From: Chlamydoabsidia padenii
Lineage: Eukaryota > Mucoromycota > Mucoromycetes > Mucorales > Cunninghamellaceae
Length of the DNA stretch: 64,000 bases
NCBI GenBank assembly: GCA_025330725.1
Contig: JAIWND010000002.1
Coordinates: 1,364,001 to 1,428,000 of the forward strand
Direction: 5' to 3'
The notes beneath the pieces were generated by a model, which saw only the letters and a program-made list of their open reading frames with translations, ran no database searches and was not told the origin of the DNA. A program made the translations under genes and the position numbers. Of the stretch, positions 2,155 to 61,678 are shown in pieces (position 1 is the stretch's first letter; every line of letters begins with the position of its first letter).

Positions 2155-2166
2155 CGGGATTTGAAA
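2155..2166 (+). promoter_or_regulatory. CDE/CHR-like element upstream of ataxin-3
   Basis: CGGGATTTGAAA, a core copy of the recurrent GGCGG-N2-TTTGAA element, lies 86 nt upstream of the ataxin-3 start codon on the opposite strand to the gene. Its regulatory role is inferred from recurrence across the window. Confidence 0.5.
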
Positions 2167-2739
2167 AAAAGTGGAGGGCAAGCAGAGAGTGCCTTGCCAA
2201 GCGAAACCTTTAAATTTCACCCCCCGTTAGCCAATCTCCGCTTACCCTTTATTAAGGTGTCATCAATACAGTAATAGCTACAAATACAAAAACTATTCAA
2301 ACCATCTCGTTAGATATGAAATAAAGGCGCAACCACCTTTATTACCTTTTTCTTCTCACTTGCGACTAAGAATAACGTTTGATGCCAGGCGAGAATTGGA
2401 CTGGCGGGATCAGAATGAAAATTCATGCAGAGGTAACTACTTTCTTGTGGTAGACAATCCATCAAAACAAGACACTTGAATCTTACTATACAGCCTGCAT
2501 GTATGAGTTAAAAAGTTTACTGACATTCCTTTCGATAGTAACAATATACCATGAATGTTTTGGAGACAAATTGATTTCGGTGCACACAGCAAGCTGCCAT
2601 ACACCCTGGTTGTTTATTCAAATAAAAAGAAGCATAAACGATTATAGTAGTTAAGGTAGATCTAAAGTAATAATAAGTAATATAATAATATGGTAGAGGT
2701 AAATATAAAAATGGGGAAGAAGAGGGGTAGTACTAATAT

Positions 2740-4471
2740 CTATGTAAGGGCTTTATTGACAAATCGTGACAGTTCTTGAGCATTCGAGACCTTGAGAAGA
2801 TGTTGTTCAACATGTAAATCGAGTTCCTATTGCATAAAAAAAAAAAAGACAATATTAGCATCAAACCTTTATTGAATCCACATAGTGTTCCATATATTAC
2901 CATAATGACATCCTTGGCAGTGGGTCGATTTTTTGGATTTTCTTCCAAAAGCCATGCGACCAGTCCAGTACAATAGATAGTAGGATAGCTAAAGTTAAAA
3001 GTAGGGCTTGGTTCGTCGAGGATTTTTCTAAAGACGTCTTCATCGCGTTTGGTAGAGTAGTGAGGTGGTACACGATCCATCATTTCGATGACACTGATGC
3101 CTAATGACCAAAGATCCGCTTTTTCACAGTATGGCAGTTCCTGGATTACTTCTGGCGCCATCCACTAGTCAAAAACAGTGAAAGAATTGAGTTGATGAGT
3201 CTTTGTGTTTTCAAGATTTTCTTCATGTTGAGTATTACCTTTGCTGTACCAAGTCGTTCCTGATTTGCATGTTTCGTACTTGTTGCCAGTCCAAAATCAG
3301 CTATGTCAAAAAAAAAAAAAAGTGTGTGAGTAAATCGGCCCAGAGTCATAATCATTCCACAATTACCCAATTCCTCTCTTACCTAGTTTGATTTCACCGT
3401 TATGACCAATCAGCAAGTTTTCACACTTGATGTCTCTGTGAATAAATCCTTTTGAATGTAGATAGTCCAGGGCATTAAGTACCTAAAAAGATTATGATGA
3501 GCAAGTCAAACCAACCAGTGATTATCTCTCCTTTTTTAGTCATACTTACTTCTCTTGTAATATACACAGCGTGTTCTTCAGGTAGACCACGGCAACATAA
3601 GACAGCAAAAACACTGCATTGCATCAAATCCATGGCAATCCATACTTCATTCCTGTAGACAGAGACTTCACGGAGTTTAATCAAGTTGTGATGACCAGTT
3701 GCCATAATCCGTAATTCACGTACAATGGCGGCGCGATATTCCTTGTCGTGATTCAATTTACATCGTTTCAGTGCCAAACGGGTTCCAGAGCCTCGTATAG
3801 TGACTTGAATTACAGCACCATTGACACTACAGATTTTTTTTTTTTTTTTAAAAAAACAGACGGGTTTAGTAGTTTTCACTTTTCTCTCTTTCTTTCTTAC
3901 TTACCCAGTGCCAATTTCTTTTGAGCCAATAAATCGTGATTTTGGGACAGAGACAAGAGTGATCCTGGGAATGGCCTTGCGTAGTCTTGTTTCGAATAAG
4001 CTTTCGTCTGGCTTTATGACAGGAAGAGTTGGTGTCCAATTGGTGTAGCATGCAGGATACCAAGGAGGCTATTATAAGACAATAAATTATACATGATAAA
4101 GCTGGTTAGTGTGTAGTATATGTATATATATAAAGACAAGTGGTGGTACTTGCCCTTATCTTGGTAGAGGGAGGTTGTTTTTTGGGTGCAGGCTTGGGTT
4201 CTGAAGGTTGAAGGTAGGCATTTCCTAAAATATCAGGTATTTCGCAGTGTCCTGGTGAGCGCCAAACAATAGGCTAAGAAGTATACAAGTTGTACTGAAA
4301 AGATGAGCAATGAATTGAAAGAGTCGTTTTGTTTTGTCAATAGTACTTTACCTTGGTTGGTGCCTGTTGTTTGTGATTCAATGAACCAAGTGAGCGTCGC
4401 TTACTGGTAATAGTGGTGACTGTGCTTGTTGATTTAGGTAGCGTAGTAGTATCAGAACGTGATTGGTGCAT
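2740..4471 (-). CDS. STE20/PAK-like serine-threonine kinase
   Basis: Eight exons (4352-4471, 4154-4273, 3905-4068, 3550-3826, 3383-3482, 3239-3300, 2901-3164, 2740-2826) encode 397 aa. The kinase domain covers about residues 128-380: glycine loop GTGVNG (134-139), ALK lysine at about 156, HRDIKCEN with Asp244, DFG at 262-264, and WMAPE at about 282-286. The GTAKWMAPE activation segment and HRDIK-EN loop are typical of PAK/STE20 kinases. The N-terminal 125 residues are basic and Ser/Thr/Pro-rich; I see no CRIB/p21-binding motif, so Cdc42 control is not evident. The second intron begins with GCAAGT, a GC-AG intron needed to keep the frame. It could be a divergent PAK or a GCK-type kinase. Confidence 0.88.
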
Positions 4472-5340
4472 TCTATCTTGGTTGTTGATCAGTTATAAGG
4501 GTAGGGTAAGGTAACAAAGTGAGAAGAAAACGAATGTTAAAAAAGAAAGGGAAATGGAGAGAAGAAGAAAAGGAGGGAAAGGTAGAATAAAAAATAGAGT
4601 TGGTTTATAAAAGGAATGGATAAGAAATTACAATGTGGATTATAAAAAAAAAAAAAAAAAAAAAGAGGCAGGAGGAAGGAAGAAAAAGAAGGGAAGGAAT
4701 GAAAATGAATTAATTCAAGAGAGGAGGTAGCACAAATGTCGGCGTTTTAATGTTACAAAAAAATGATGACCACACACTATGGTGAATCATGAGCTTCGTT
4801 CTTTTAAGAATGATAAGGGAGCCTGACTTTTTCTTTTTGTTAGTATAAATTTATACTGTGTGTGTGTATTGTAATGTACATTACTAGTATGTGCAGCATT
4901 AGAGCGTGCATTCTTACTTATGGAGACACCTCAAGGTTCTTTCTATCAGAACCAGGCCGTGCACACAGAGTACGAAGATAATCTCTTTACAGACACAATG
5001 CACCGCCTATAAAAGAAATATGCGTGGGATCAATGTTGATGCATATTAAAATATCTTTTTGGATATCATGCAAAATGCATCAGCCGGAATACGAATATCA
5101 TAAACTCCGACATTTTCTCACATTTACATCAAAAACCAAAAAGATACTTTGCCCATTTGACTCTATCAATCGAATAAAGATAATCTACTGCATTGATGTC
5201 CAAATGTTTGATGTTTTGTGATCTAATGAGACTATATACAGTTGATAATAACTATCCAATCAAATCATTCCCTATGATATTAGTTCTACATCCCCCACAG
5301 CCACATTTATACTACTGTAGTCCTATTTTTAAAATGTATC
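4472..5340. other. Intergenic region without supported gene
   Basis: Contains the kinase promoter, an A-tract near 4637-4660, and one variant element (GGCGTTTTAA at about 4741). Short open frames here have no splice signals or similarity that I can support. A minus-strand AATAAA near 5340 suggests the 3' end of the small locus to the right. Confidence 0.5.
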
Positions 5341-5363
5341 TTTATTGATTGTAAAAGATATAG

Positions 5364-6113: not shown

Positions 6114-7258
6114 ATGATAGATTACTTTATAAAAACCTTGTATACATCTTACTATTCTATTCAAAACGACCCCTGGGCTGATGAAATTCTTGCCTTATGG
6201 GTACCGATTGCTGCGTATTGGATCTATAGTATGATATTCCACTTTTTGATGATGGCGGAAATACCCTACTTTGAACAATACCGTATACATACTGCTGACG
6301 ATATTGATAAACGAAACCGGGTTAGCGTTAAACGAGTACTCGCCATGGTCACCTTACAACAAGTCATTCAAGTCGTCCTTGGCTCACTCGTCCTTCATCC
6401 TATCAATCCTCAACTGATGATCACTCAACAAGAAAAAACTCTAGGTCGACTTTATCAATATTGCTTGAAATTGATGGATATCTTGTCTTCTTCTGGTGGT
6501 AGTATGGATCGATACGCCTTAAACCTAGCCAACAGTCTATATTGGGTCATCATCCCCGGTCTTCAATTTTTTGCAGCAATGTTAGTATAATAAAATGGAT
6601 GTTTATGTGGGTGAATTCCTTTTTTGTACTAATTACTTTTTTTTTTTTTTTTTTTCTCATGTATGCATCTTAGGGTGATCATGGATACACATCAATACTT
6701 TTTACATCGACTCTTTCACCTCAACAAATTCCTTTATAAACACTTTCACTCTCATCACCATCGATTATATGTCCCTTATGCATTTGGTGCTTTATACAAT
6801 CATCCGGTGGAAGGATTCCTCTTGGATAGTCTCGGTGCTACCTTGGCATTCGAACTGACTCGTATGACTCCTCGTATGAGTATGATCTTCTTTACCTTCT
6901 CCACTTTGAAGACAGGTAAACCCATACTCTCCTTTCTCCATTACTACTTTTGATCTTTACTAATCATTTTACTCTTAAACTATAGTGGATGATCATTGTG
7001 GATATTACCTGCCTTGGAACCCCTTACAATTCTTATTTGGAAACAATGTCAAATAGTAAGTCATTTCGCCAAGAAATATAGGATGGTTACTAATCTTTTT
7101 TTCTTCTTCTTCTTGGCAGCCACGACATACATCATCAAGCCTATGGTATCAAAAGCAACTTCTCTCAACCCTTTTTTACTTTTTGGGATAAGCTTTTGGG
7201 CACTGAAATGGATAATAATTCACGACATTTGAAAACCAAATCAACCAAAACCAATTGA
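6114..7258 (+). CDS. SUR2: Sphinganine C4-hydroxylase (SUR2-like)
   Basis: Four exons (6114-6580, 6674-6915, 6986-7055, 7120-7258) encode 305 aa. SUR2 is an ER membrane di-iron enzyme that hydroxylates dihydrosphingosine to phytosphingosine in ceramide synthesis. The fatty-acid-hydroxylase histidine boxes are present: DTHQYFLHR near 160-168, KHFHSHHHR near 178-186, and HDIHHQ in the last exon, with several hydrophobic segments before them. Length is close to that of yeast SUR2 (349 aa). The start is the first ATG after a T/C-rich leader. The 3' region carries AATAAA near 7443. Specificity for sphinganine rather than another sterol-desaturase-family substrate rests on overall resemblance. Confidence 0.9.
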
Positions 7259-8405: not shown

Positions 8406-9266
8406 ATGACACTTTCTCCTCATCAAAAAGTGTCAGTGGTATTCTACATACTCAGTGTCTTTGTATCCTTCCTCTACTCTGATATCTTTACACCACCACA
8501 AACTTACTTTAGCACCAAAGGCAATATTTTTAATGTCTTTTTTATTAAGAAGGGCTGGTTTTGGGTTACGGTGGTCTACGGCTGTTACGTCTACTTTATC
8601 CTCTCGAAACGGTGGTCTACACAACACATCACACAGTCACTCTATCGCTTTGCATGTGTTACGCTGTATTGGTACGTCATGACCCAATGGTTGCTTGGCC
8701 CCAGTTTTATTGATCGGGTTTATGTAGCTACCGGGGGTAAATGTGCTGCTCCTACTACAATGAACAACGATGGTAATGTGACGATACAACAACAACAACT
8801 GACTCTTTTATTATCACAAACCTTTCGTCAATCAACTTGTCGTCAATTGGGTGGACGTTGGTCAGGTGGACACGACGTCTCGGGTCACTGTGTGATGCTC
8901 ATTCACGCCAGTCTCTTCTTTTGGGAAGAGCTCTCTTGGTTGTTTTACTCGATCCCTACGGCTACTCAACTCAAACGGACTCAACCATCTGCTTGGCGAT
9001 CGTTATTATCTGTCTTGGCTTTACTTGTCTTGTGGTGGTGGATGTTGGTGATGACAGCTATTTACTTTCACGGTCATTTCGAACTAGTGTCGGGTTGTAT
9101 CTTTGGTGTAGTGGGATGGGCTTCTTTGGTAAGTAACGGGGATAGAGTTAGGAAGGAATTTTTGGTAGATGTACAATACTAACCATTCTTGTTTTTACCA
9201 CATTTATAGTATTTAGGCCTCTTCCCCAACCTACCGGCCATCGGTTTACCACCACGATCCCTCTAG
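8406..9266 (+). CDS. FIT family lipid-droplet protein (FIT2/SCS3-like)
   Basis: Two exons (8406-9128, 9210-9266) encode 259 aa. FIT proteins are ER membrane enzymes needed for lipid-droplet emergence; FIT2 has acyl-CoA diphosphatase activity. The signature GHDVSGHC spans 155-162 and the second catalytic region YFHGHFE spans 220-226, matching the two catalytic histidines known in human FIT2 (His155 and His214). Six hydrophobic segments are visible. The insert at about 113-150 is Gln-rich. An element GCGGGATTTGAAATT lies 103 nt upstream. Whether it corresponds to SCS3 or YFT2 of yeast cannot be told. Confidence 0.9.
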
Positions 9267-10382: not shown

Positions 10383-10450
10383 TAGTCGACACGAAAGGCG
10401 GCTCAGGCGAATTCGTCTCTTCTTTTTCCTTTAATCCAAAAAAAAACGAA

Positions 10451-10972
10451 ATGGTAACCTATGCTGTCATTTGTGCAAGTAATCAAAACAGATCCATGGA
10501 GGCTCATAATGTCCTAAAGTAAGTAAAGTAGACAAAGGAATGAGAAAAAAGGATGATTAATCTTATACTTACTTATATATATCTAACTTTAGCAAGAATG
10601 GGATTCAAGTCTCTTCGTATGGCACAGGCACCATGGTCCGATTACCAGGTCCAGCAATCGACAAGCCCAACATTTATCCATTCGGAACACCATACGACAA
10701 AGTATATCAAGAATTAAAAGAACGTGATCCTGTCTTGTAAGTATGAAAAGGGACCCTCCTCCCCCTTTGCGACTACTAGTACTCATTTTGTATTTTAGAT
10801 ACACCAAGAATGGGTTATTGAATATGTTGGATCGTAATCGAAATGTCAAGGAAGCTCCTCAACGCTGGCAAGAATCAAAAGAACTTTACGATGTGATTAT
10901 CACCTGTGAAGAACGATGCTTTGACGCTGTAGTAGAAGGTAAGGAAGGTGGTTTTAAACTGTGACCTAACCC

Positions 10973-11015
<43 letters not shown>

Positions 11016-11248
11016 CCACTGTAGATCTATCAAGTAGAGGACAAATACACAATACAAGGACACATGTAATTAATGTAGAAATCAAGGATAATCACGACGA
11101 TGCTGCTTTGGGTGGACAAGCAATCTTAAAACTAGTAAATCAAGTGAATGATTCCAAAGACATTGATGAGGATATGACCGACATTATTCATCAATTCACA
11201 GCGGATCATCCCAACTTGCCTGTTTTACATACTGTTACATACTTTTAA
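10451..11248 (+). CDS. SSU72: SSU72 RNA polymerase II CTD phosphatase
   Basis: Four exons (10451-10518, 10593-10736, 10799-10938, 11025-11248) encode 191 aa. SSU72 removes phosphate from Ser5/Ser7 of the Pol II C-terminal domain and works in the cleavage/polyadenylation complex. The CX5R phosphatase loop is CASNQNRS with Cys8 and Arg14. [22 protein letters not shown] and [10 protein letters not shown] blocks match the family, and length equals yeast and human SSU72 (about 194-206). The third intron holds a 39-nt T run just before its acceptor. Confidence 0.96.
10977..11015 (+). repeat. 39-nt poly-T tract in SSU72 intron 3
   Basis: Uninterrupted T run ending 9 nt before the acceptor AG. Similar runs occur at 31862-31898 (FANCD2 intron), 14559-14592 and 27213-27245. 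Likely to be length-variable. Confidence 0.9.
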
Positions 11249-23788: not shown

Positions 23789-24201
23789 CTATTTCTTCTT
23801 CTTGTCCTTCATTTCCAAAGCCGAGGATTCTGCTGTCTTCTTCATGATGGTGAGTTTTCCAATGGCGTTGGCCTTGACCGACATTTGCTTTTCGATATTC
23901 TTGTTGATTGAGGCCGTCAGTTTCTAATGATGAGAAATTGAGTATGAGTAAAAGTGTAATATTCTTTTTCTTTTTATGATAGGTTACCTTTTCCAAAGAC
24001 TTTTGCTTGACAAGGATATGTTGCTTGGGTGCGATAGTTCTTGCTATAACATCAGGGCAAAACTGGAAGATTAGTATTCTTCATAAATGCATATTACAGT
24101 GAGACCTTTAGATACTTACATCCTTTTTTCATTTTAGCAGGCTTTTGTCGAGCATTCTTCTTTGCTGGTTTGGTCACTTTTTTTAAAGATCCTTGAGCCA
24201 T
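23789..24201 (-). CDS. C19orf53/UPF0390-type small basic protein
   Basis: Three exons (24120-24201, 23988-24043, 23789-23923) encode 90 aa. The start MAQGSLKKVTKPAKK, the central GSRTIAPKQ block and the Lys-rich C-terminus match the eukaryotic DUF2462 / C19orf53 (Leydig cell tumour 10 kDa homologue) family, whose members are small nuclear/nucleolar basic proteins of uncertain role. It is divergent from fibrillarin, with 289 bp between starts and one shared copy of the recurrent element, which hints at co-expression with ribosome-biogenesis genes (inference). Confidence 0.8.
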
Positions 24202-31600: not shown

Positions 31601-31858
31601 ATAGTCTTCAACGATCTATATGATGTTTTACTCTCTTATTCACGGTGTCAACGACAAACGACGAAAAAAACAAATAATACCTCTCTGCTCTATCTTCAAC
31701 CTTATGCAAAGCTGCGAAAAAGCGGCTGACGATACCTTGGAAGGTGTGGATGCTCTTCTGGGATGTGGGTTTGCTGCTTTCGATTTGGACAATACCATGG
31801 TAAAGAAGAACACGCACTTGCTAATCATATTGGTGCTATTTGCTAACTTTTAATGATA

Positions 31859-31899
<41 letters not shown>

Positions 31900-39071: not shown

Positions 39072-39109
<38 letters not shown>

Positions 39110-39290
39110 TTATTGTTGTTGCTATAAAAGCCAATGTTGGTTTGACGATATTTTGTTGTGTTGGTAGGGGATGTTTTATTTTGACGTTATGATTTGCTTT
39201 GATGGTATTCTGCAACTTGTGTTTAGCATGACCATGAGCGGCCTTTAAAAGAGCTTTATCGGATGTGAGTTTTTCAAATCCCGCCGGCAT
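38322..39290 (-). CDS. Ser/Thr-rich single-pass membrane protein
   Basis: Single exon of 322 aa from ATG at 39288-39290. Residues 59-121 are Ser/Thr/Pro-rich with a poly-Ser run encoded by a GAT repeat (about 39073-39108). One transmembrane helix spans about 122-145 (MIIGGVIGGLVMISSIVCYTL) followed by a basic stop-transfer (HRRRIKRK) and a 175-residue tail with a poly-Asp run and SP/TP sites. The layout is that of fungal wall-stress sensors or syndecan-like proteins, yet no cleavable signal peptide follows this ATG; a hydrophobic in-frame stretch lies upstream of it without an ATG, so the real start may be in an unseen exon. The recurrent element overlaps the start codon. Confidence 0.6.
39271..39288 (-). 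promoter_or_regulatory. CDE/CHR-like element overlapping a start codon
   Basis: Minus-strand GCCGGCGGGATTTGAAAA begins within the predicted start codon region of the membrane-protein gene and would encode PAGFEK. Either the element works inside the transcript, or translation starts downstream. Confidence 0.45.
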
Positions 39291-43852: not shown

Positions 43853-45322
43853 ATGATAAGATTGAACAAGTCTTCTGGTCTCCTTATCGGTTTCTTCCTG
43901 GTTACACTCTTCTTCATTCATATACATCTGGAACAACGATTACGATATGATTGGTCAATACAACACAACACCAAGGACGAAAATAACAAGGACTCTGCAA
44001 CAATACAATATGGACCGAAAGAAGAGAAATTCCTCACCTATCTTCCTCATTCTGGACTTCATAATCAACGAATAGCCTTGATCAACAGTATCATTTTGGC
44101 CAAAGCACTGAATCGTACGTTAATTATGCCTGAACTCAACCTTGGCATAGCAACTTATTGGCGACCATCAACGCATCTACCGTACCGACTTGATGAATGT
44201 GGAGGCAAGTACCAACAGCAACAACAACAAGAAGGCAAGAAGGATACACCATGGTGGAGCGCAAATTGTTATGATTATCGACAGTACCTTCCTATGGCGG
44301 TGGAAACAATTTTTGATTTATCTGCGGTACACAAGATGGGTGTCAAAACGATCCAACGACGAGACATGCGATTAGATTATTTTGAACGATATTGGTCAGT
44401 ACCCCGAGACGAACGAAATCGAACATTGGCTTATCAAGTACAAGATCTATCCCGTTACTCCTATCAAATTGTCGACAACAGTAACCAAAGCAACAGTAAT
44501 AACAACAATAGTAACAAATTTGTGGAACGATATACATTACAACAACTAGGTCAACGCCAAGAAACGTTTTTGATCTTCAATTCCCTATTTGGTTCCGATC
44601 GATTGGCTTTACCTTCTGGCACCAAGTGGTCGCATACTCGGGATTGGTTACGAAACGAAATCGGTGTCCGTCAGCCTTGGGTCATCAATGCCAGTTTGGA
44701 TATTATCAGTCGATTAGGTGGACCGGGATCTTTTATTAGTGTCCATATTCGGATGGGCGATGGTATCTTTAAAAAGATGATGGATGAAACGATGGCACGT
44801 GTGCGACAACAATTGATTGAACGACAAGTCAATAATAACAAGGATGATTATCAATGGAAATCTACTCTGAATCTCATTCAATCACTTCAGGCACAACCAG
44901 AAAAACGATTAACAACATGCTTACAGTTACAACAACAACAACATCAATCCCAATCATATCATCATCGACTGGGTTTGATCTATATGGCCACCGACGCATC
45001 TTCACCTCATACCACTCTACCTCACTTGTTTGATGAATTCGTTTGCTTATTTACATTGGATGATTTCAGGGATATAGTCAACAGTACTTTGGCTCTTCGT
45101 CCTCCACTATTGGATCACCGTCATCAACAACACCAGCATCAGCAACATCATCCTATTCCAACCACAAAAGGTGCCATTTTTTTACCTTTGATCGACGCCG
45201 AAATTGCCTCTCAAGCCTCCTTCTTTGTCCCAACACCAAAAAGTACCTTCTCTGGATACATTCGATACAGAAACAAACGCTTCCAACAAGTATACATACA
45301 AAATACCACATCCATTAGTTAA
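43853..45322 (+). CDS. O-fucosyltransferase family glycosyltransferase
   Basis: Single exon of 489 aa. A signal anchor at 10-25 (LLIGFFLVTLFFIHIHL) indicates a type II Golgi/ER membrane protein. The fold is shown by SGLHNQRIALINSIILAKALNRTLIMPEL (about 64-92), which matches the GDP-binding start of the GDP-fucose O-fucosyltransferase family, and by SVHIRMGDGIF (about 298-308), the HxRxGD motif. Low-complexity Gln, Asn and His runs interrupt the domain. Fucose-containing wall polymers are typical of Mucorales, so a wall-glycan role is possible but inferred. Substrate unknown. Confidence 0.85.
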   Translation: MIRLNKSSGLLIGFFLVTLFFIHIHLEQRLRYDWSIQHNTKDENNKDSATIQYGPKEEKFLTYLPHSGLHNQRIALINSIILAKALNRTLIMPELNLGIATYWRPSTHLPYRLDECGGKYQQQQQQEGKKDTPWWSANCYDYRQYLPMAVETIFDLSAVHKMGVKTIQRRDMRLDYFERYWSVPRDERNRTLAYQVQDLSRYSYQIVDNSNQSNSNNNNSNKFVERYTLQQLGQRQETFLIFNSLFGSDRLALPSGTKWSHTRDWLRNEIGVRQPWVINASLDIISRLGGPGSFISVHIRMGDGIFKKMMDETMARVRQQLIERQVNNNKDDYQWKSTLNLIQSLQAQPEKRLTTCLQLQQQQHQSQSYHHRLGLIYMATDASSPHTTLPHLFDEFVCLFTLDDFRDIVNSTLALRPPLLDHRHQQHQHQQHHPIPTTKGAIFLPLIDAEIASQASFFVPTPKSTFSGYIRYRNKRFQQVYIQNTTSIS

Positions 45323-45527: not shown

Positions 45528-45674
45528 TCAATAGGCTGAATAGGCCAGTTCATCTTCGGAGGACTAAACACACACAAACACACAAAAGAAAAAGACAAGT
45601 TAGTAATATATCTTTTTGGGTATTCAGTCGACATTGTCTATACTTACATCTTCATCATAAGGCCTACAAGTTAC

Positions 45675-45710
<36 letters not shown>

Positions 45711-46211
45711 AGGGAGGTCAATCCAAGAGCCTTACTTTTATCACCTGCCATTTATTTACTACTTACGATTCACCCAAAAGAGCATGAAGGTCACGTATCT
45801 GGTCCTTTAAATCGTTCTTAACCGAGATTAGTTGTTTGATATGGTCCACCGCTATTCGCAAGTAAAGAGTTAGTGTTCATTCCAGTTAACTTGATAATAT
45901 ACCCCCCACTACTTACATTTCTGCAGAATAAGAGCTTCACTTCGGTTCCCACTGTTGAGAGCAGGAACAATTTCAATTAGTTGATCAAAACCCAGTCGAA
46001 TGTTCTGTCGTCGTTTTTGTTCGGATGCGATATGGTTGGCCTTCTTTTCTGCATCTGTAAGTAATTCATGGGGTGCTTTTCGGCTTTTTCGTTCCTTGGC
46101 GGGTGGGTCTGGTTCATCTCGTAATGTTCGTTTCTGTGAGGAGGTATTTGGTGACTGAGGACTGGTAGCTGTATCGGGTGATGGTGTTTTTGTATCATTC
46201 GTAGATGTCAT
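45528..46211 (-). CDS. bHLH-zipper transcription factor (Max/Mlx-like)
   Basis: Four exons (45917-46211, 45767-45851, 45648-45663, 45528-45563) encode 143 aa. Basic region and helix 1 are ANHIASEQKRRQNIRLGFDQLIEIVP (about 58-84; His, Glu and Arg contacts for E-boxes present), helix 2 is SEALILQKSVDHIKQLI, then a short zipper (LKDQIRDLHALLG). The N-terminus is Thr/Ser/Pro-rich and the C-terminus acidic. The SEQKRR form resembles Mlx/INO4-like fungal bHLH proteins. Exon 3 is only 16 nt. Two elements lie 80 and 127 nt upstream. Confidence 0.86.
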
Positions 46212-46586: not shown

Positions 46587-47274
46587 TTAACATAGTTTTT
46601 CTACAAAGCGTTTTCCAAGTTCATATAGTTCTTGATCATCAGAGTCGTTCTGTACCTTGAGTAAAATTGCATCTCTTTCTAATCCGTACTGATTCAAATC
46701 ATCGATCAAACTTGTACAACACAAAATGAAAACAGGGTATGGAAAGTGTGAGTGACATTGTATGATGATGCATGCATAGACGAATACTTACTGTTTATCA
46801 GTTGGATGTGATGATCCCGCATCATCAAATGTAGAGTTGGAAAACAAGACGATACCAATCGTTTTGGAATGCAAAGGATGACGATCCTCTTCTTCTTTGA
46901 AATGCTTTTCATATAACGATAGTGCTCCCCTACAATACCAGAACAAAACTTGAATTCATGCCTTTTCAAATCCCGCTTTTTTTTTTGATTGATACTTACA
47001 TGGATGCAAATAGTAGGATATCGGATTTATTTTGAATACGGATATCTTCAAGAGCGGTTTGTTCATTAGCTGCATCTGTAAGATATAAAAAAGATGTTAG
47101 TGCGTGCGAGATGGTGATCATTTCTAACCATTTACCATCGGGGCTTCGTGCAAGGTCGCCAACAATGACATTGTACGAAATACCTGTACTTTTGACACCT
47201 TTTGCTAATTGATCTGCATGACGATGAGCAACCGGGGATTTGTCTGTAATGATTCTGATCGTTCGAGGAGCCAT
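46587..47274 (-). CDS. Unrecognised 158-aa protein
   Basis: Four exons (47136-47274, 47000-47075, 46792-46929, 46587-46710) keep frame and encode a well-balanced globular-looking protein: MAPRTIRIITDKSPVAHRHADQ, YNVIVGDLARSPD, IQNKSDILLFASMGALSLYEKH, TIGIVLFSNSTFDD, and a helical C-terminus ending VEKLC. Alternating strand/helix pattern suggests an alpha/beta (flavodoxin-like) fold, but I see no cofactor loop and assign no function. The last intron uses an AAG acceptor. A perfect copy of the recurrent element is in intron 2 (46964-46977); another is 167 nt upstream. Confidence 0.65.
46964..46977 (-). promoter_or_regulatory. CDE/CHR-like element inside an intron
   Basis: AGCGGGATTTGAAA on the minus strand, in the sense orientation of the 158-aa gene, inside its second intron. 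Confidence 0.4.
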
Positions 47275-47557: not shown

Positions 47558-48103
47558 ATGGGTGTTACGTAAGTAAAAAAAGAATATTCCATCTTGACTG
47601 ATAATACTTGACAATAAACTTCTTTGTGAATAGTGTCGAATCTTACAAAGCTGGTGATGGTGTGAACTTCCCCAAGAAGGGTGATACCGTGACCATCCAC
47701 TACACTGGTACCCTTGAAAATGGTAAGAAGTTTGACTCTTCTCGTGATCGCAAGGAACCTTTCCAATGCAAGATTGGTGTTGGTCAAGTTATCCGTGGTT
47801 GGGATGAAGGTGTTCCTCAACTCTCCATTGGTGAAAAGGCCAAATTGACTGCCACCTCCGACTATGCTGTAAGTCTTTGATATGATCTTTTATTGTCACT
47901 ATCTCCCTTTTTACTGATTTTTTTTATTACTTTTTTGTATAGTATGGTCCCCGTGGTATTCCTGGTGTCATCCCCGGTGGTGCTTCTCTTATCTTTGGTA
48001 AGTATTAAAAAAAGGCATGGTGATATAATGTGCAGGACACCCATTAACCTTCACGCTTTTTTTCTTTTATTCATTAGACGTTGAACTCCTTGCTATCAAC
48101 TAA
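47558..48103 (+). CDS. fkbA: FKBP12 peptidyl-prolyl isomerase
   Basis: Four exons (47558-47568, 47634-47868, 47943-47997, 48078-48103) encode 108 aa, the standard FKBP12 length. It catalyses prolyl isomerisation and is the FK506/rapamycin receptor; in Mucorales its loss gives drug resistance. Conserved pocket blocks are visible: [65 protein letters not shown]. The first coding exon is only 11 nt (MGVT). Codon use is C-ending as in highly expressed genes. Confidence 0.97.
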
Positions 48104-49198: not shown

Positions 49199-49585
49199 CC
49201 ACTGGTAGACGTTTAACACTTTTCTACTATGATGGAATTCCTTTGTTTTAGTCTATAGTCACTTTTTAGAGTAGCTTACTTGCATTTTTACTTGTTAACT
49301 TGATAAATAAACGATGCTTTTATTTATATAAAAAAGGTTAAATGATTCTATTTGCTTTGAGGTGTTTAGACTATAGTGAATGGATCGTGGGTGTAGTGGA
49401 CCAAAGGCTGATCTTATGGCTTAATGCTATGATTGTTTTGATTAGACGATTGCCAAAGCATATCACTGACGAACAACGATGAAAAGGTTTTTGTGTGTCT
49501 AGATGGTTGTTGTAAAGCAATTACCTGGATGCGAAATGCTAAACCATCATCTTACTGAGGGACTTTTGTGGTACCGAAGACTTAA

Positions 49586-49771
49586 TTCAAAACCCGCTTA
49601 GTCTCGCCTGGAATCTTAAGAGAGCTCTATTGTCTCAATGAACAAGTGATGCTAATGACAAAAGTGACCATGTGCATTCCTTAGCCTATTCCCAACAAAC
49701 TTTACATAATGGCCAATATACCGAGTCCACTGTATGGAGCAGTATAGCCTCAAGATCATTTTAACCTGACT

Positions 49772-49802
<31 letters not shown>

Positions 49803-50540
49803 GTTGCAGAATAAAAAATTGACACACAAGATATAACTTATTTCAAAACCCGCTTACTCTCGCTTGGAATATTGGGAGAGCTCTACTGCCTTAATGAACT
49901 AGTGGTGCTAATGACAAAAATGACCCTGTGCATTCCTTAGCCTATTTCCAACAACATTTACATAATAGCCATTGTACCAAGTTTTTCGTATGTGGCAGTA
50001 TAGCCTCAAAATTGTTTTAACCTGACTTTTGTGAAAAAAAGTTACAAAATCAAAATTGACACACAAGACAAAACTTGATTCAAAACCCGCTTACTCTCGC
50101 CTTGAATCTTGGGAGAGCTCTACCAGCTTAATGAACAAGCGATGCTAATGACAAAAGTGGCGATGTAGACATTATAGCCTATTTCCAACAAACTTTACAT
50201 AATGGCCAATGTACCAAGTCCACTTTATGGAGCAGTATAGCCTCAAGATCGTTTTACCCTGACTTGTAAAAAAAAAAAAAAAAAAAAAGTTGCAGAATGA
50301 AAAAATTGACAGACAAGGCAAAACTTAATTCAAAACCCGCTTACTCTCGCCTTGAATCTTAAGAGGACTCCACTAGCTTAATGAACAAGCGGTGCTATTG
50401 ACAAAAGTAACCTTGTGCATTCCTTAGCCTATTTCCAACAAACTTTACATAATGGCCAATATACCAAGTCCACTGTATGGAGCAGTATAGCCTCAAGATC
50501 GTTTTACCCTGACTTTTGGACAAAAAAGGATGTAGAATCA
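49586..50540 (-). repeat. Four tandem ~250-bp units, each with a CDE/CHR-like element
   Basis: Four direct copies begin at 49586, 49842, 50079 and 50329 (spacings 256, 237, 250). Each starts with the minus-strand element AAGCGGGTTTTGAA, then shared blocks such as CATTCCTTAGCCTATT, TTTACATAATGGCC and GCAGTATAGCCTCAA, then an A-tract of varying length and a GACA(C/G)ACAAG block. Differences between copies are scattered substitutions and small indels that do not preserve a reading frame, so the units look non-coding. Orientation as written points the element to the left. Confidence 0.9.
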
Positions 50541-50555
50541 GATTTGTGTTTTGAG

Positions 50556-51070
50556 AGTGGGTTGGGTTTCAAAGGATGTGGTTTCTGAGGGGGGGGGAGT
50601 GAAAGGCTCGTCTAGAAAAAAAATATCTTCGTCGCAAAGAAAAATTAAAATGCATTGCAAGTCTAAACATCCTAACACAAGGATCTTAGAGCTTGGCTTT
50701 TGCGGTAAAGTGTGTTGGAAATATGCTATGGTGTCCATATGGCCACTTTAATCATTAGTATCCTTTGACAATGGAGCGGTCAAGCTCCTTCCAACCCTAA
50801 CGAGGAACTGGCGGGTTTTGAAAACGATTTTTGTTTCTGTCTGTAAAAAAGTCTTTGTCCTTTTTCTTGCAAAAGACAGGTCTAACTCATTACAAGCTTG
50901 GACAGACTGACACAAGAATCTTGGGGCTTGACTTTTGCGGCAAAGTATATTGGAAATGGGTTATAGTATTCACATCACCACTTTGATCGTTAGAAACGTT
51001 TAACAATGGAGCAAGGAGAGCCCATCCAAAATCTTAGTAGGGAATCAAGGGAAAACGGGATTTGAATACG
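50556..51070 (+). repeat. Diverged, inverted continuation of the ~250-bp repeat array
   Basis: Three further units point right, with elements at about 50556 (degenerate GTGGGTTGGGTTTCAAA), 50810 (GGCGGGTTTTGAAAAC) and 51056 (CGGGATTTGAAT); spacing 254 and 246. Shared blocks include CTTGACTTTTGCGGCAAAG, TGTTGGAAAT and CACTTT-ATC-TTAG. The reverse complement of the left array has the same GTAAAGT-TGTTGGAAATA-GCTA order before its element, so both sets are probably one family in inverted orientation. A partial body copy continues to about 51180. Confidence 0.7.
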
Positions 51071-51189
51071 AAGCAGGTCCTCTTGACACCTTTTTTTTTT
51101 TTTTTACAAATGACAGTTAAAAGTCATCGCAAGTTCGAACAGACTGACACAGGTGACTTGGTGCTTGGCTTTTAGCCTATATACCATAA

Positions 51190-51897: not shown

Positions 51898-54232
51898 CTA
51901 GAGCATGATGATCCGTATACCATCGAAATCACCAATAGCATGTTTAAAATTGGGTCCAGGGCAACCGATAAACATAAACGATCGAGGAACTTGCAGCTGT
52001 TCCGATATTGCGTCCACCATGGCAGGATCAAAAGTGCCCTGAATAAAGATAAGATCCAATTGAATTTTAGGGTACACTTTGTCCAATAGTTCATGATTCA
52101 TTTCCAATTGTTGAGGGATATCTTCTATACGGTCGTAAATGTGCACCAGCTTGATATGGCTAGAGTCTTCGTTTGCTTGTACATAGAGAATCGCCTTGTT
52201 TAACACATGGGGTTCATCCGTCTTAGCAAAAAACACAATAGGCTGTTTCCTGAGCCCCTTGATTTCCTTCACCAGCCATTGTCCAGCCTTCCGAGATATC
52301 CCAGCCAGAACAGGTATTGTTCCAATACGATCAAAGAGCCAGTAGCTGATTTTAAGAAGGAGACCTGATCTGAACATCACCATGATTACCAACACCACCA
52401 CAACAAAGTATATTATAAAATAAGCGGCAATAAGAGGAGTGATGACAATGTTGTTGATCAATGCTGCCGCCAAGACGATAAGAGATATCACAGCAGTAAA
52501 TAGATTCACCTGGACAAGTCTTGGTAATCGACCTCGCTTGTATTTCATCAACACATTTGTAAGAGCATACATTGTGAGGACACCCAAGAAGGCCACCGCA
52601 AATACACCAGATAATGAAGCAGCATCCCCTTGTACAATACAGCACAAGATCACATTGAGAGCGAGGAATACAATAATGGCGTAATGGTACGACCCAGTGA
52701 ATCGGTTTCGCTTCAAAAAGAAGGAGGTGATAATGCGATCACTAAACGTAGAAACAAGGAATAAGTCTTTTGTTGCTTCTTTTTTTTTTTTTTTTTTTTT
52801 TTCTTCTTCTGATGTGCCTTACCTTGCCAATCGAGTGATAAGACCAACAGCACCAATCATACCAGTCAATACCACAGCGCTCAATACAATTACAGCATCC
52901 ACCATCACCCACATACGCAACCATTCTTGTCCTGGAGTTGCATATTCCGCCAATAAGGAGATTGCACTTGCCGCATTTTGTTCGACCACTGAGATCGGCA
53001 CCAAGACTGTTACCAGAAAAGTCATTGGAGGATTTAGTATACAAAGGAATGCGTACATGTTGCGCATCACCTTTGGGAATGTATTTGGTTTCAGATCTTG
53101 AATATAGTTTTCCGCTGCCTAACAACATCGAGATTTAAATTAGATTTAGATCAATTATAAATGTATCTTACCTCGATTCCAGTTACACCAAGTAGCCCAA
53201 CACAAAATCCATTAAAGATAGCATGGACAGGATTGTTACCAGAAGAAGGAGGAGAATTCCAGTTGGCCACCAAAACCGCATTGCCCGATTTACCCCATTG
53301 GATAAGACTGGCAATCATCAGGACGGCCATAGTTACAAGATGAAGGATAAAGATCGCTAACGAGACAGTAGATGATTCACGCAGGCCGAGCAAACAGATC
53401 AGGGAGACAAAGATGATGATGATTAGGGATAGTACAAACGGAGTCAGAGAAGAAGGTAACGTAACTTGTTCGGCAAGATATGCAGCAGCAGTAGATGCCG
53501 AGACACCACAAGTTGACAAGTAATCCAGGACTGAGAAGCACGCCGCCACAGCAGCAATCCATTTCGATGTAGTATGTAACATTGCATTGTAAGTTCCACC
53601 ATTCAAAGGTAATGCCGTAAGTACTTCAGTCATTAGTTTCTTGACAGGATACATGATAAGACAAACAAGAAGCATGGAGATGGGTGCATATTGTCCAGCT
53701 TGTACGATACAAGGTCCAACAGAATAAAGTACTGATGCCACTAGATCATTTCCAGAGATAGATGTTGCTCTCAAGGGTCCCAGTAGAGAAGCGAGATGTT
53801 TAGTTCGACTTTCTTTGTATTCCTTTTGTTTGTCTTGAAGTTCGACATAGTAAATGTTTCCCCACCTAATAATAATAAAGAAAGAAAGAGAGTGAGTGAG
53901 TACGAGTGTTGAAGCAAGACATCAGTATGGATTAAAAGGACTTACCCCGCGAACTCCCAGTCATTACTGAGGTTTGGATACCGAGATGGACAGGAAGAGT
54001 ATTTCAACACGGTTGGATTGGTACGATCAATTTGTCGGTATCGTATATGTTGAAACTGACTTTCGGCAAAAGAAGGCAGCATGGCATTATCGTCTGTAAG
54101 GATCAAAGATCGTTAAAGTATGAAAGTGAGTAAAAATAATGTGAGTAAGAATGCACGTAATACTTTACCCAATGTTATTTCAAGTGAATGAATGGACTTT
54201 ATCCTAACAGACTCTTCTGGTAATCCAGTCAT
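51898..54232 (-). CDS. APC-superfamily amino-acid permease
   Basis: Five exons (54169-54232, 53946-54093, 53172-53865, 52823-53118, 51898-52741) encode 681 aa. Twelve or more hydrophobic segments are visible, starting with SISGNDLVASVLYSVGP, the APC first-helix signature in which the substrate-binding turn follows, and TALPLNGGTYNAML. The C-terminal 190 residues are soluble (HVLNKAILYVQANEDSSHIKLVHIYD), like the USP-type tail on some amino-acid transporters. Probably a plasma or vacuolar membrane amino-acid/polyamine transporter; the substrate is not evident. The last intron has a long A-tract on the coding strand shortly after the donor. Confidence 0.87.
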
Positions 54233-54597: not shown

Positions 54598-56793
54598 ATG
54601 GACCTCTTTTCCATTATATGGCAGTATATCTGCTTATGGACTGGAATATATATCTTTGTCTATCTTATCAAGTTTTATTCTAGAAAATCAGTAAGTATAC
54701 ACAACAAACTTCTTCTGGATCGAACTAAAGAAAAAAGGGACTTGTCTCTGTTTAAATTAGATACCTAGACGCAAACCTAGAACCATCAGTAACAGCAATA
54801 TCTTACCCACCCATGCGGAAGATTCCAATCCACCAGAAGACAATGAAGACAACGAAACTGTGGTACAAGATAATACTGATAACACCAATGAACGACAACA
54901 GCAACAAGACGAATGGCACATTCAACTCTTCCAAGTCCGCTTCACCACGCAACGATTAAACGCCACGTTTGCTCGCTGGGCCAAGGTGTTTCCTACTTTT
55001 TGGAACTGGTGGTTTTCGATCGGTGTGGTAGTAGGTGGTTTGACTATGGTGGCTGGTATCCTGGTCATGGTCGTGGCTGCTTTCAAGATCTTAACACTGT
55101 TTGGTCATGGTCTCTTTAGTGCTTTTACGATAAGCAACAACGACAAAAACAATACCAACAATACTAATAATCAACTTCAACGATGGGCTAAGCGTGATAT
55201 AGAACCGGAACAACCACAGCAACAAAACGACCCACTCTTTTTGCCAATGGTAAGTCTTACCTTGATTACTTCTTCCACTAACTTTTATATATTATATGTA
55301 TATAGATCCCTGGGGTCACCTTACCTTTGTCTCATATTGGCTATTATCTCTCGGCTCTTTTGATATGTGGTATTATTCATGAAGCAGGTCATGCTATTGC
55401 ATCCTTTGTGTAAGTACAACCCATCTTATGTAAACTAACTAAACTAACAGGTTTGATATTCATTATCAGGGAGCGGGTACCTATCCAAAGTAGTGGTGTC
55501 TTCTTTTATTACATCTACCCGGGCGCTTTTGTCAATGTACCTGATCAATACCTGCTCTTATTATCACCATTCCGCCAATTGAAGATCATCTGTGCGGGCA
55601 TTTGGCATAATCTCATACTCTATGTCTTCACATTATTAATGCTTGGTGGGGGACTAAAATCAATGCTGGAAATAGGTGGATGGCAATCTTTGGAAGGTAA
55701 TGGTGGGGTCAGTGTGGTCCAGGTGCGATCTCAATCTCCTATGGCTCCTCATCTCCCAGTGTCTTCTGTTATTTATCAATTGGATGATACCGAACTCGAA
55801 CACAATATCATTGACTGGAATAGCTTTTTATTGGATCCTCAGGGCCGCGAAAAACCACATCCAGGGTTTTGTGCTGTGGTAAATGACCAAGAGGATGATT
55901 CTCTGCTTGCCTCTTCTTCTTCTCTCTTGGCATGCTGTGAAATCGATGATCAATATCCTTTTGGTAAAGCTTTGAATACATCTATATCTTGTTTCCAAGA
56001 TTTTGACTCGGATACATTGAAAAAGGTAATAAAGAAAGGAAAAAGAAAAAGATAGGAAACAACTAGAACATTGATAATAACAGTCTCTCTCTCTCTCTCT
56101 CTCCCTGCAGACACCTAATCGCTTGACATGTTTACCTACTATTCAAGTATTGGGACCAAGGCATCCGGAAAGGTGTGAAAACGATGGGGAATGCTCAGGA
56201 AAAGGGATGAGATGTGTGACACCATACACTCCTTCTCAAAGTGGTCAAGTGGTCCGGGTTTATGCAAGAATGCCTGACTGGATGGATTTGGGTGAAGATC
56301 AAGACAAGGTATTTGTATTTGAAGGCGAACTGGTGGATATCTGGGAAAGTGGTAAGTACCAACATATCAAGTCAAGTCAGGGGTATGGATAGTAAATTCG
56401 ATCGTACTAACTTTTGTTTACTAGTTAAAGTAGGAATACTACAGCCCAAGTATTGGTTTTTACCAGCTTCTCTGCCTCACAGGTCCGAACTGATGTTAAG
56501 GTAAAGAAACATAGTCATATCTTTTTTTACTTGAGTAGTCTAACTGGCTGTTTTTATATAGGTATATCTCCTCATTTACTCTTGCCTTGGCGTTATTGAA
56601 CATATTACCTGCCTTCAAATTGGATGGCGATCATGCTGCTCATCAATTTTTGGCACTTGTCTTTCAGCGGAGTCTGAACACCACAAGAAATATCACTGGT
56701 ATCCATGCCATGCTTGTCAAGATCATCACTTATTTGGTTGGATTTGTTATCGTCTCTAGTATAATCTTTGGAACCCTATCATCACATATATAA
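54598..56793 (+). CDS. MBTPS2: Site-2 protease (MBTPS2-like)
   Basis: Seven exons (54598-54690, 54761-55249, 55306-55409, 55470-56025, 56111-56351, 56425-56500, 56562-56793) encode 596 aa. S2P is the intramembrane zinc metalloprotease that releases SREBP and ATF6-type factors from membranes. The zinc motif HEAGH is at 219-223 within a hydrophobic segment, and the second metal site LDGDH lies near 540 in LNILPAFKLDGDH. A long Cys-containing luminal loop (CCEIDD, RCENDGECSGKGMRC) matches animal MBTPS2. Seven or so hydrophobic segments. An SREBP-type factor is encoded at 35276-36587. Confidence 0.93.
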
Positions 56794-57041: not shown

Positions 57042-58423
57042 ATGTCTCACGAACAAGATATACATCCTTTTGCTATCAGTAATGCAGATCATCAACAATT
57101 TAACTTGACTGAATACCAAGGTCTGCTTAACGAACTCAATCAACAAGTACGGCAAAAACAACCAAAAGACCTCCTACAATTCTGCTCCCAATTCTTCCTC
57201 AGAAAACTCGAATTGGAACGTTCCGAATACCGTAGTAGTAATAGTTGTGGTGTTGGTAGTGGTGGCTCATATTCCGCCTTTAGTCCGTTTGGTAATCCAG
57301 GTAAAATGAACATAGAAAGAGATAGTGGAAGAATACTAACTTTTTTATCTTTTTTTTGGGGGGGGGTGATTAGGTGAACCCATGTCAGAAGATCATCATG
57401 ATGGTATTGACGAAGAGGAATCAAGGGATGGTGTGGGTGATTTACAACAAATGCATCTAGCCTCGTCATCATTGGCCGGACGTGGACGACGTACTTCTGT
57501 CAGTGCCGAGTCCTTACAACCCACCGCAACTCATGACTTTGTCAAGACAGTGATTCCAAAGACCGACGACCAACGTGAACGGATCCGGGCAGCGATCGGC
57601 AACAACTTTTTATTCAAGAACCTCGACGAAGAACAATACATGGATGTGGTGAATGCCATGGTGGAAAAGCAAGTGGATAACAATGTCAAGGTGATTGAAC
57701 AAGGCGGAGTGGGTGATTACTTTTACATTGTGGAATCGGGCACACTGGATTGTCTGATCAACGGGAACAAGGTGACAGAGTATACCGCAGGTGGCAGCTT
57801 TGGTGAACTGGCTTTGATGTACAATGCTCCTCGTGCTGCTACTATTATCGCCACTTCTGATTCGGTACTATGGGCTCTGGATCGGGTGGCTTTCCGGATG
57901 ATTCTCATGGAAAACACCGCTCGTAAACGAAGAATGTATGATTCGTTTTTATCTGAAGTTCCCATCTTCAAGTCATTGGAACCATATGAACGACACAAGA
58001 TTGCTGATGCATTGGAGCCTATCCAGGTGGATGATGGTGAGGTGGTGATTAAGGAAAATGACCTGGGTGAAAACTTTTATCTTATTGAACAAGGCAATGC
58101 TGTCTTTTACAAGACTGCTCCGGATGGTACTCAACAGGAAGTCAATAGGTTGGCCAAAGGTGATTACTTTGGAGGTAAGTGACATAATAATTGCTTAGAT
58201 AATAATAATAATAACATATACTAAAATCATCATTTCTTTTTTTCTATTAGAATTGGCTCTATTGAACGATAAACCACGTGCTGCTACTGTTGTTGCTGAT
58301 GGAAAACTGAAATGCGTCACATTGGGTAAAAAGGCGTTTACTCGGCTGCTGGGCCCTGTCATGGACATTCTCCAAAGAAACTCTGAAAACTATCATGCCA
58401 TCCTCAAACAAGCTAACCAATAA
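57042..58423 (+). CDS. pkaR: cAMP-dependent protein kinase regulatory subunit
   Basis: Three exons (57042-57300, 57374-58174, 58251-58423) encode 410 aa. It binds and inhibits the PKA catalytic subunit until cAMP binds. An N-terminal dimerisation-like segment (LLNELNQQVRQKQPKDLLQFCSQFF split here as helices) spans about 26-55. The inhibitor site RGRRTSVS is near 122-129 and has a phosphorylatable Ser (type II-like). Two cyclic-nucleotide domains carry phosphate-binding cassettes FGELALMYNAPRAAT and FGELALLNDKPRAAT, each with the key Glu and Arg. Length matches fungal PKAR (about 400). A palindromic element lies upstream. Mucorales often have several PKAR genes; which one this is cannot be told. 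Confidence 0.96.
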
Positions 58424-58959: not shown

Positions 58960-58975
58960 TCGGATCACACAGACG

Positions 58976-58990
58976 GCGGGATTTGAATTG
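58976..58990 (+). promoter_or_regulatory. CDE/CHR-like element next to a 55-aa gene
   Basis: GGCGGGATTTGAATT, 17 nt upstream of the minus-strand start at 58959; flanked by a T/C-rich stretch on the right. Confidence 0.5.
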
Positions 58991-59670: not shown

Positions 59671-60062
59671 TCTATCATTCCTTGTTTTTATTATATTATG
59701 TGTAAACACTCAATAGGTATCTCGGTTCGATTGTTTATCGACTTTTCGACCTGAATCTCCTTTGGAACTGTAGGCTAAATAACAACTCGGGAAAAAACAA
59801 CGTCTTATAAAGACAACGATTGGATAGCCCTTCCTACTGGTTAATACGGTTAATATAGCTTCACATGTAGTTTATATATATATATATGTATTAGTATATT
59901 GAATGGTATTTATTAATAAAAGGAATCTTAATATTTGGAACAAAAATCAAAAAGGCGATATTTCGGAATGGAGGGGGGGAATGATATGAAAAAAAGGGAT
60001 GACAAGGCTAATGCATAAAAGAAGGATGCTATGTTTAGAATGAAAGTAAAAGGAATTACATC

Positions 60063-60481
60063 TTAATGATTGGATTGAGTGACATCGTTAGTGGTGTGGC
60101 TAAAGAGACCACCGGCTCCAATGTAGCTGGCCTATGATCACAAAAAAAAAGAGGTCAAATGTCAAGTATGTTTCGAGGCGGGATTTAAATTTTGACACTT
60201 ACATCGAAACCAAAGAGACTTCCTTTGGTTTTTTCACCACTGTTGTTGTTAACCACGGCTGTTTGTTTGCTATTATCCACGATTTCGGTCGTTTGTTCTG
60301 CTTCAGGTTCAGCAGGCGTATCATCTTCAGCAGGCGTATCATCCAAAGGGGCGTCATCTACTGGCACCTCATCCACAGTGGTGGTGGTATCAACAGATTC
60401 GGCCACTTCATGCGTTTTACCACAGGGAGCAGCAATGGCGCTGGCAGCAAAAAGGGCGGCAATGACAAAGGCGAACTTCAT
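60063..60481 (-). CDS. Small secreted protein (paralogue B)
   Basis: Two exons (60203-60481, 60063-60131) joined in phase 0 encode 115 aa. The signal peptide MKFAFVIAALFAASAIAA and following APCGK are nearly identical to paralogue A at 131-530; the acidic middle (VDDAPLDDTPAEDDTPAE) is longer, and the QTAVVNNNS block and C-terminal GGLFSHTTNDVTQSNH echo A. The intron carries a copy of the recurrent element (GGCGGGATTTAAAT, 60177-60190, opposite strand). Two AATAAA sites follow. Function unknown; secretion strongly suggested. Confidence 0.87.
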
Positions 60482-61678
60482 GTTTGTTTGTTTTTGAGTT
60501 TAAGAGAATAGAAAAAGAGATGTTTTTCGATAGAGAATATTTATTTCGAAACGACCATTTTGTTGTCTTTATATATGAAAAAAAAAATGACAAGGAGATG
60601 AACTAGTCTTTTCCCCCGCCCCTGACATCTCAGTCAATTAATGCTAATAAGATCTTCTCTCCTTTGGGTAATGAAGGAAGGTGGGAAAGGGAATCTATCA
60701 AGGAAAACAAATGATAACATTATCATTTGCCATTATGTTATATTAAAAAGGGAGGATGTTTCGAAAAGCATGGCCATAAATATATGCTGTTGTTTACAAT
60801 GACACTTGCTCACAACTAGAGTAACGATCGTTGGCGGGATTTCAAAATCTGTTCTTTGCATGATTATTTTTTTCAAAAACCGCTTTTTCATTTTTTCTTC
60901 TTCGAAAAAAAAGGGGGGGAGGTGAGGGTTTTCTTGTCTATGGAACCAATAGTCCACATTCAATGCAAGGAGAGTATTGCTTGTATGTACTTTGTGTATG
61001 ACTTGCGTCTTTTTTCTTTTTTCTTTATCGGATCATACCCGTTGCAGTAATAATGAAGGTATCTTGTAATATCAGCTGAATTGACACGTTTCAATCTTAA
61101 TTATATTAAAAGATTCAATCTAACCAACTCACTTAATCACTATTTTAAATAGGGTGAGATGGCAGAAAAAGGGGACCCTGAATCCGTGAATGTTCAAACC
61201 CCGCCGAGCTCTTTCCCTTCTTTGATTAACATTTTTCGATCGGTAAAATGAAAATGCTATTTCGATCGAGAGAGAGAAGGAGTTTTTGATAAATTATATA
61301 TACTAATTCCGCTAACCGTTCAATCAACATGGTGTATGATATAATTTTCCATGATGAAAAAAGGAGAGAAGAAAAAAAAAAGCACCGTCAGTGAAATTCT
61401 GTTACCTGCTTCTCTTTACAACGCTTGGTTTTGTTTTAGGAGACCAATGATTATTTGGTATAATGAAAACACGTTGACTGAGATGAGTCTTTATCCCCCT
61501 CTTGCAAAGACATAAAGGGGTTTTCTCGGGTTTGATTTAAAGAAACGGAAATTGTCACTGTGTCGGCGTTTTGAAGGAAAGATATAGAAAAAGGGTGTAT
61601 ATTGCTTTCATACCATCATTTGAGAAGGAGAAACTACATCGTTAATGGGGGCATCTTGCATACATTCCATCTACTGTC
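60482..61678. other. Intergenic region with several element copies
   Basis: Contains elements at 60833-60846 (GGCGGGATTTCAAA), 61193-61205 (minus strand, GGCGGGGTTTGAA) and 61564-61574 (GGCGTTTTGAA). No gene supported apart from the short frame at 61679. T-rich and GAGA-rich blocks near 61270-61280. Confidence 0.5.

Follow-up and report, generated by a model that had tools for sequence, protein, structure and literature searches.

A 64,000-nucleotide stretch of the genome of the Mucorales fungus Chlamydoabsidia padenii (contig JAIWND010000002.1, positions 1,364,001 to 1,428,000 of the forward strand; hereafter the window) carries many copies of a short two-part word, GGCGG-N2-TTTGAA, which raises the question of what kind of promoter element this is and what might bind it. 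The original prediction was a site of the cell cycle-dependent element/cell cycle genes homology region (CDE/CHR) type. Our data show that the word, refined to RKCGG-GA-TTTRAA-W, is genuine, is strongly enriched in promoters and serves genes in general, and it is a candidate site of one general regulatory factor with a Reb1/Abf1- or NRF1-like role, an identification that we consider probable on present analysis.

Counts were made in the whole genome (34.23 Mb) and, in detail, in a 264-kb sample comprising the 64-kb window and C1:400001-600000, from which a weight matrix was built iteratively (site threshold 10 bits), the control being the same pattern or matrix read backwards (reversed). Genome-wide, GCGGNNTTTGAA occurs 3,961 times versus 35 for the reversed pattern, and the exact GGCGGNNTTTGAA occurs 1,510 times (741+769) versus 14 (5+9). 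The window is richer in the element than the genome average, with 11 exact copies of GGCGGNNTTTGAA versus ~2.8 expected from the genome-wide density, and it holds 56 sites of at least 10 bits. The matrix finds 202 sites in the sample versus 15 for the reversed control, and, with 202 matrix sites for every 48 GCGGNNTTTGAA matches in the sample, the genome as a whole is estimated to hold ~17,000 sites, repeat copies included. When 8-mers were counted de novo in the 300 bp upstream of genes, CGGGATTT came out on top (22 versus 0 reversed). The recurrence first reported in the window is real, with 32 of the 33 coordinates originally listed scoring at least 10 bits; the exception, at 14372 (GGCGGG-TTCGAA), is in the wrong register.

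The element is 12-14 bp long and non-palindromic, and its spacing is exact: GCGG-Nx-TTTGAA is found 20 times in the window at x=2 and once over the remaining spacings in the range 0-12, the corresponding counts in C1:400001-600000 being 28 and 5. The two-part design with a fixed 2-nucleotide spacer, present on both strands, is confirmed, other gaps being nearly empty; the composition of the arms had to be revised. The 5' arm had been given as GGCGG, but its first G is free and the arm is [G/T/a]CGG; since TCGG (52), ACGG (12) and CCGG (5) forms occur beside GCGG (104) in 178 sites, the outer G is optional. Independently of the matrix, variants with one mismatch were counted across 123 kb of non-coding DNA: C2, G3, G4, A11 and A12 are strict, and changes at T7, T8 and base 10 are better tolerated. 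Position 10 is G in 60 cases, A in 24, T in 11 and C in 10, and position 7 of non-coding sites is T in 84, A in 10, G in 4 and C in 2. Conservation of both arms, as first proposed, holds for CGG and the last AA, which are nearly invariant, and fails at position 10, within TTTGAA, which is G in only 63% in the weight matrix. Nor is the spacer freely variable as had been supposed, GA leading with 36 of the 84 strict sites in non-coding DNA. Such mismatch tolerance fits what would be one contiguous footprint. For practical use the element can be written as a probe, AGCGGGATTTGAAA, or as a scan pattern, KCGGNNTTTRAA.

Enrichment of the full site far exceeds that of either arm. When whole sites were simply masked, the observed/reversed counts of the arms were 151/132 for TTTGAA, 178/232 for GCGG, 256/322 for TCGG and 61/56 for CGGGA. 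A stricter mask, which removed all sites of at least 8 bits before the arms were counted, left 141 copies of TTTGAA in non-coding DNA (Markov 142.5, reversed 130) and 14 of CGGGAT (Markov 11, reversed 10), with observed/Markov counts of 44/47.5 for CGGGA and 226/237 for TCGG. GCGG, at 144, exceeded its Markov expectation of 106, yet stayed below the reversed control of 207.

The 264 kb yielded 103 gene models with a score >15, and the place of the element was determined relative to these. The models have 4.5 introns each, of median length 74 bp, with GTAAGT donors and YAG acceptors. All sites taken together reach 2.77 per kb in the 400 bp upstream of genes, 0.13 in coding sequence, 0.39 in introns, 1.26 in the 400 bp downstream and 1.70 elsewhere, and the downstream and elsewhere sites are probably in part repeats and in part promoters of unmodelled genes. 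Counting only non-repeat sites, those not flagged as sharing flanks with another site, there are 81 in 31.4 kb upstream versus 18 in 141 kb of coding sequence, so the upstream enrichment that was predicted is clear, at a 20-fold higher density. A non-repeat site lies within 300 bp before the ATG in 64 of the 103 genes (67 if repeat-flagged sites are included), whereas 40 column-shuffled matrices place one before 1.95 genes on average and never before more than 6, and the reversed matrix does so for 1. The distance to the ATG has a median of -119, with the middle half from -161 to -93 and most sites from -80 to -180. The specific statement that most of the listed copies lie 70-170 nucleotides upstream of starts was too generous, as 12 of the 33 lie at -65 to -180 of models scoring >15 and 13 lie within 300 bp, with some of the others adjoining weakly scored gene models. 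Orientation is free, because among 84 gene-site pairs 36 sites have the orientation of the gene and 48 the opposite one (p=0.23), and divergent gene pairs can have a single site between them (for example 24322 and 47443).

Narrow placement before the ATG and presence in most modelled genes are also what a core-promoter element would give, that is, an initiator or a TFIIB recognition element/TATA-like sequence that fixes the transcription start and is recognised by the basal machinery. Such elements usually have a direction, however, whereas this one has none, and TATAWAW occurs within 200 bp upstream of 21 of the 64 genes with the element and 14 of the 39 without, so that no TATA link is seen. 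We regard a core-promoter function as unlikely.

Which genes carry the element bears on the proposed cell-cycle role. A Pfam scan of the longest exon, performed for 90 of the 103 genes, matched 58 of the 90 at E 0.001, some of them below the curated cut-off. Genes with a non-repeat site include those for fibrillarin, Ssu72, FIT, Not3/5, a JAB-domain protein, an Rpb1-family polymerase subunit, ribosomal L4, argininosuccinate synthase, an ARG5,6-type enzyme, PPR, dynamin, Rho-GDI and Sin1. Among those lacking one are two bZIP, one HLH and one GATA factor, glucan synthase, TrkH, a SUR7-family and a ricin-type lectin-domain gene; in AAR2 and a cyclophilin-RRM gene every site is flagged as flank-sharing. 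Because the genes with the motif span many functions, a restriction of the element to cell-cycle genes is ruled out. A housekeeping bias is only suggested, because the depletion of transcription-factor genes is not significant (see below). The loci L001-L008 and L029-L061 stand outside the 264-kb promoter counts. Of 15 proteasome loci fetched at 0.8-1.0 kb each, 10 have a site at the 10-bit threshold (L061 by weak sites only), the comparison being 75 of the 103 sample genes with a site in -600 to +100. At the MCM locus L038, TCGGGATGTGAA was spotted by eye upstream of the predicted start and was left out of the counts; the other MCM promoters fall mostly outside the loci.

In the parts of the literature consulted, CDE/CHR sites have a four-nucleotide spacer (PMC5716687, PMC4974476), the animal CHR is the main part with a secondary, often dispensable CDE (PMC5716687), and LIN54 needs TTYRAA, alteration of the outer TT or AA strongly cutting its affinity (PMC4974476). 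The element shares with human CDE/CHR sites a GC-rich 5' arm followed by a TTTGAA 3' arm, a fixed spacing and a location in promoters, but differs in its spacer of 2, in having the CGG arm as the strictest part, and in accepting any base at position 10 (G>A>T,C) and a loose position 7. The GGCGG-N4-TTTGAA and N4-TTYRAA forms number 0 in the 264 kb. Assignment to the CDE/CHR family is therefore rejected on spacing and on a 3' arm that does not follow TTYRAA, and the cell-cycle identity originally proposed is not supported, the targets being not only cell-cycle genes. According to excerpts of PMC3093354, worm, fly and human elements join an E2F half to a CHR half, and in C. elegans the hybrid motif and a LIN-54 peak occur together in 356 genes. 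Compared through its text description, with the letters of the logo unseen, this C. elegans E2F/DP-LIN-54 motif (Motif 1, PMC3093354) resembles the element in joining an E2F-like 5' end to a CHR-like 3' end, and differs in marking a subset of promoters and in being bound by a MuvB-containing complex.

These resemblances would suit a DREAM-like composite, in which E2F/DP occupies the CGG arm and a CHR-binding protein occupies TTTGAA. The genome does encode six E2F_TDP domains over cut-off, three E2F-like with RRIYD and three DP-like with RRVYD, and upstream TTTGAA outside sites is more frequent than its reversed control under the stricter mask (42 versus 19 within 300 bp), though at the Markov expectation of 41.4. 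The spacer and the breadth of the genes with the element nevertheless speak against the composite, and the TCGG and ACGG forms sit badly with an E2F site, which should need GCG. Ordinary E2F sites (TTTSSCGC) are not enriched upstream of genes (2 versus 3), and as TTTSSCGC is unenriched and the strict part is CGG rather than GCG, a plain E2F site is rejected as well. CDE/CHR sites are bound by DREAM/LIN54, and the expectation of E2F/DP and LIN54 proteins was answered in part: the E2F/DP domains are present, whereas exon-by-exon genome searches, a weak test run with no positive control, gave no match to the LIN54 CXC domain (PF03638 or human LIN54 CXC) or to the LIN9 DIRP domain (PF06584). DIRP proteins are reported as absent from fungi in an excerpt of PMC7225089. 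Overall, we judge a DREAM-like composite to be improbable. The three E2F-like and three DP-like domains (L029-L034) point, as an observation in their own right, to duplicated cell-cycle regulators.

The recurrent copies might also have been dispersed by a mobile or satellite repeat, an origin that had been named among the results that would undo the promoter interpretation. Of the 202 sample sites, 37 have flanks resembling those of another site, and 28 of these 37 form one cluster around a ~240-bp tandem unit; a genome search with one unit gave at least 162 matches (40 of 506 candidate places scored), so that there are probably many more than 162 such units genome-wide. The other 165 sites have unrelated flanks within the sample and hold the promoter signal. 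A repeat origin is thus largely refuted for the promoter copies, being rejected for the 165 sites, while it stands for the 37; as the explanation of the element as a whole we give it very little credence. Seven of the 33 listed copies are flagged as flank-sharing, six of them in or beside the tandem repeat at 49580-51100. In 14 aligned units GCGGGTTTTGAA is kept in 13, the other having GCGGATTTTGAA, and arrays of the unit, which has a variable poly-A/T tract, are also present at L013, L019, L022 and L028; the arrays listed reach up to 8 units. Rfam gave no match in the window or in the repeat-bearing loci L013, L019 and L022. The aligned units fold better on both strands than column-shuffled alignments do (-13.7 versus -5.3 and -21.4 versus -9.3), but because column shuffling removes local order we do not claim an RNA nature for the units from these values.

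The reverse strand of the element, TTCAAATCCCG, resembles the T-arm of tRNA, and a B-box-like (extra-TFIIIC) site read by TFIIIC was considered on the strength of its similarity to the B box, GGTTCRANTCC, in which G53 and C56 are invariant; several papers that print these letters are also, by their titles, about tRNA. The weight matrix, however, has A/T and almost no G at position 13, the counterpart of the required G53, and the equivalent of C56 (position 10) is variable, and ARAGORN found no tRNA in the window. The identity with a B box is rejected on the weight matrix, and TFIIIC binding is in our view the least probable of the explanations considered here. The out-of-register GGCGGGTTCGAATC at window position 14372 looks more akin to a tRNA B box.

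We favour a single general factor, for which Reb1/Abf1 in yeasts and NRF1-class factors in animals are the analogues in role. One and the same sequence-specific DNA-binding protein would recognise RKCGG-GA-TTTRAA-W and act as a general (housekeeping-type) promoter factor of this fungus; it probably keeps the promoter nucleosome-free, helps to fix where transcription complexes assemble and may activate the genes concerned. Like the element, Reb1, Abf1 and Rap1 sites lie ~100 bp upstream of many unrelated genes, are orientation-free and have a long footprint, but they have other sequences and each serves a smaller share of genes than the 64 of 103 sampled here. The animal NRF1, ZNF143, DREF and Motif 1 classes are alike in gene breadth, closeness to starts and length of site, and differ in their letters and lineage.

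Several points weigh against this interpretation. Gene starts are those of ab initio models from a purpose-written gene finder, and the position analysis covers 264 kb of 34.2 Mb, including the richer-than-average window. No non-repeat site was found for 39 of the 103 genes, TBP, an ELP1-like gene and ribosomal L7/L12 among them, and the 18 sites in predicted coding sequence are accompanied by 14 in introns. Transcription-factor genes, one of eight being assigned by a sub-cut-off Pfam match, divide into 3 with and 5 without a site (p=0.15, not significant). Half-sites may also matter, since CGGGAT remains at 24 versus 10 reversed after the simple, laxer mask, and in the 300 bp upstream of genes the excess of TTTGAA over its reversed control under the stricter mask is repeated by TTTAAA (52; Markov 53.3, reversed 10), so that free 3' arms may have a weak role.

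The sites in the window and the local repeats are collected in Table 1. Two further features of the window are a 21-bp tandem repeat at 25014-25081 inside the fibrillarin gene, which probably encodes its Gly-Arg-rich part, and an O-fucosyltransferase-family (PF10250) gene at 43853-45322. Relatives of the latter are numerous in Mucorales, and its own contig probably carries a diverged paralogue.

Table 1. Copies of the element and element-bearing repeats in the window; positions count from the first letter of the window, distances are to the ATG, and gene models are those scoring >15.
Feature	Position	Strand	Context	Score (bits)
TCGGGATTTGAA	2154..2165	+	-90 of gene 853-2069 (-)	20.2
GCGGCATTTGAA	5943..5954	-	-166 of gene 6114-7056 (+)	20.9
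GCGGGATTTGAA	8289..8300	+	-112 of FIT-family gene 8406-9266 (+), Pfam FIT	24.4
GCGGCATTTGAA	10369..10380	-	-77 of Ssu72 gene 10451-11248 (+); second site 15 bp off	19.0
GCGGGATTTGAA	14535..14546	+	no adjoining gene model; flanks common to one other site	21.8
GCGGGATTTGAA	14766..14777	-	no adjoining gene model	21.3
GCGGTATTTGAA	23320..23331	+	GGCGG form is exact; no modelled gene begins within 700 bp downstream	17.3
TCGGGATTTGAA	24322..24333	+	-126 of 23789-24201 (-); -164 of fibrillarin gene 24491-25877 (+), divergent	21.9
GCGGATTTTGAA	28510..28521	-	-103 of 27-exon gene 28618-34998 (+)	15.8
GCGGGTGTCGAA	36937..36948	+	-105 of gene 37047-38133 (+)	13.3
GCGGGATTTGAA	39273..39284	-	within predicted gene 38322-39290 (-), first codons	21.4
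GCGGAATTTGAA	46293..46304	+	-87 of bHLH (INO4-like) gene 45528-46211 (-)	20.6
GCGGGATACGAA	46339..46350	+	second site, -133 of bHLH (INO4-like) gene 45528-46211 (-)	16.8
GCGGGATTTGAA	47443..47454	+	-110 of 47558-48103 (+); -174 of 46587-47274 (-), divergent	21.1
Tandem repeat	49580..50515		3.8 copies at a ~250-bp period; GCGGGTTTTGAA in every copy (- strand; 49586, 49842, 50079, 50329)	
Adjoining stretch, same repeat cluster by similarity	50540..51100		sites at 50811 and 51055 (+)	
GCGGGGCTTGAA	54493..54504	+	-100 of 54598-56793 (+); -266 of 51898-54232 (-)	18.3
GCGGGATTTAAA	56944..56955	+	-93 of cyclic nucleotide (cNMP)-binding gene 57042-58423 (+)	20.8
GCGGGATTTGAA	58976..58987	+	no adjoining gene model	22.0
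GCGGGGTTTGAA	61193..61204	-	no modelled start within 700 bp downstream	19.5

Among the hits listed in searches of open-licence papers, neither this word nor any Mucorales promoter motif was found described; the motifs in the excerpts of PMC11258239 are methylation motifs. A bolder possibility, which we hold only tentatively and think doubtful, is that most promoters are organised bidirectionally by a single 12-bp word and a single factor specific to Mucorales, which would do the work that in yeasts is divided among several general regulatory factors, and that the same word recurs in a large family of dispersed small tandem units, possibly non-coding RNA in nature. The resemblance to CDE/CHR is a caution that likeness alone is no ground for inferring cell-cycle control. 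With a site in about six of ten sampled promoters, the element offers a direct handle on what may be a main promoter factor of the Mucorales, and it is useful for gene annotation and promoter design.

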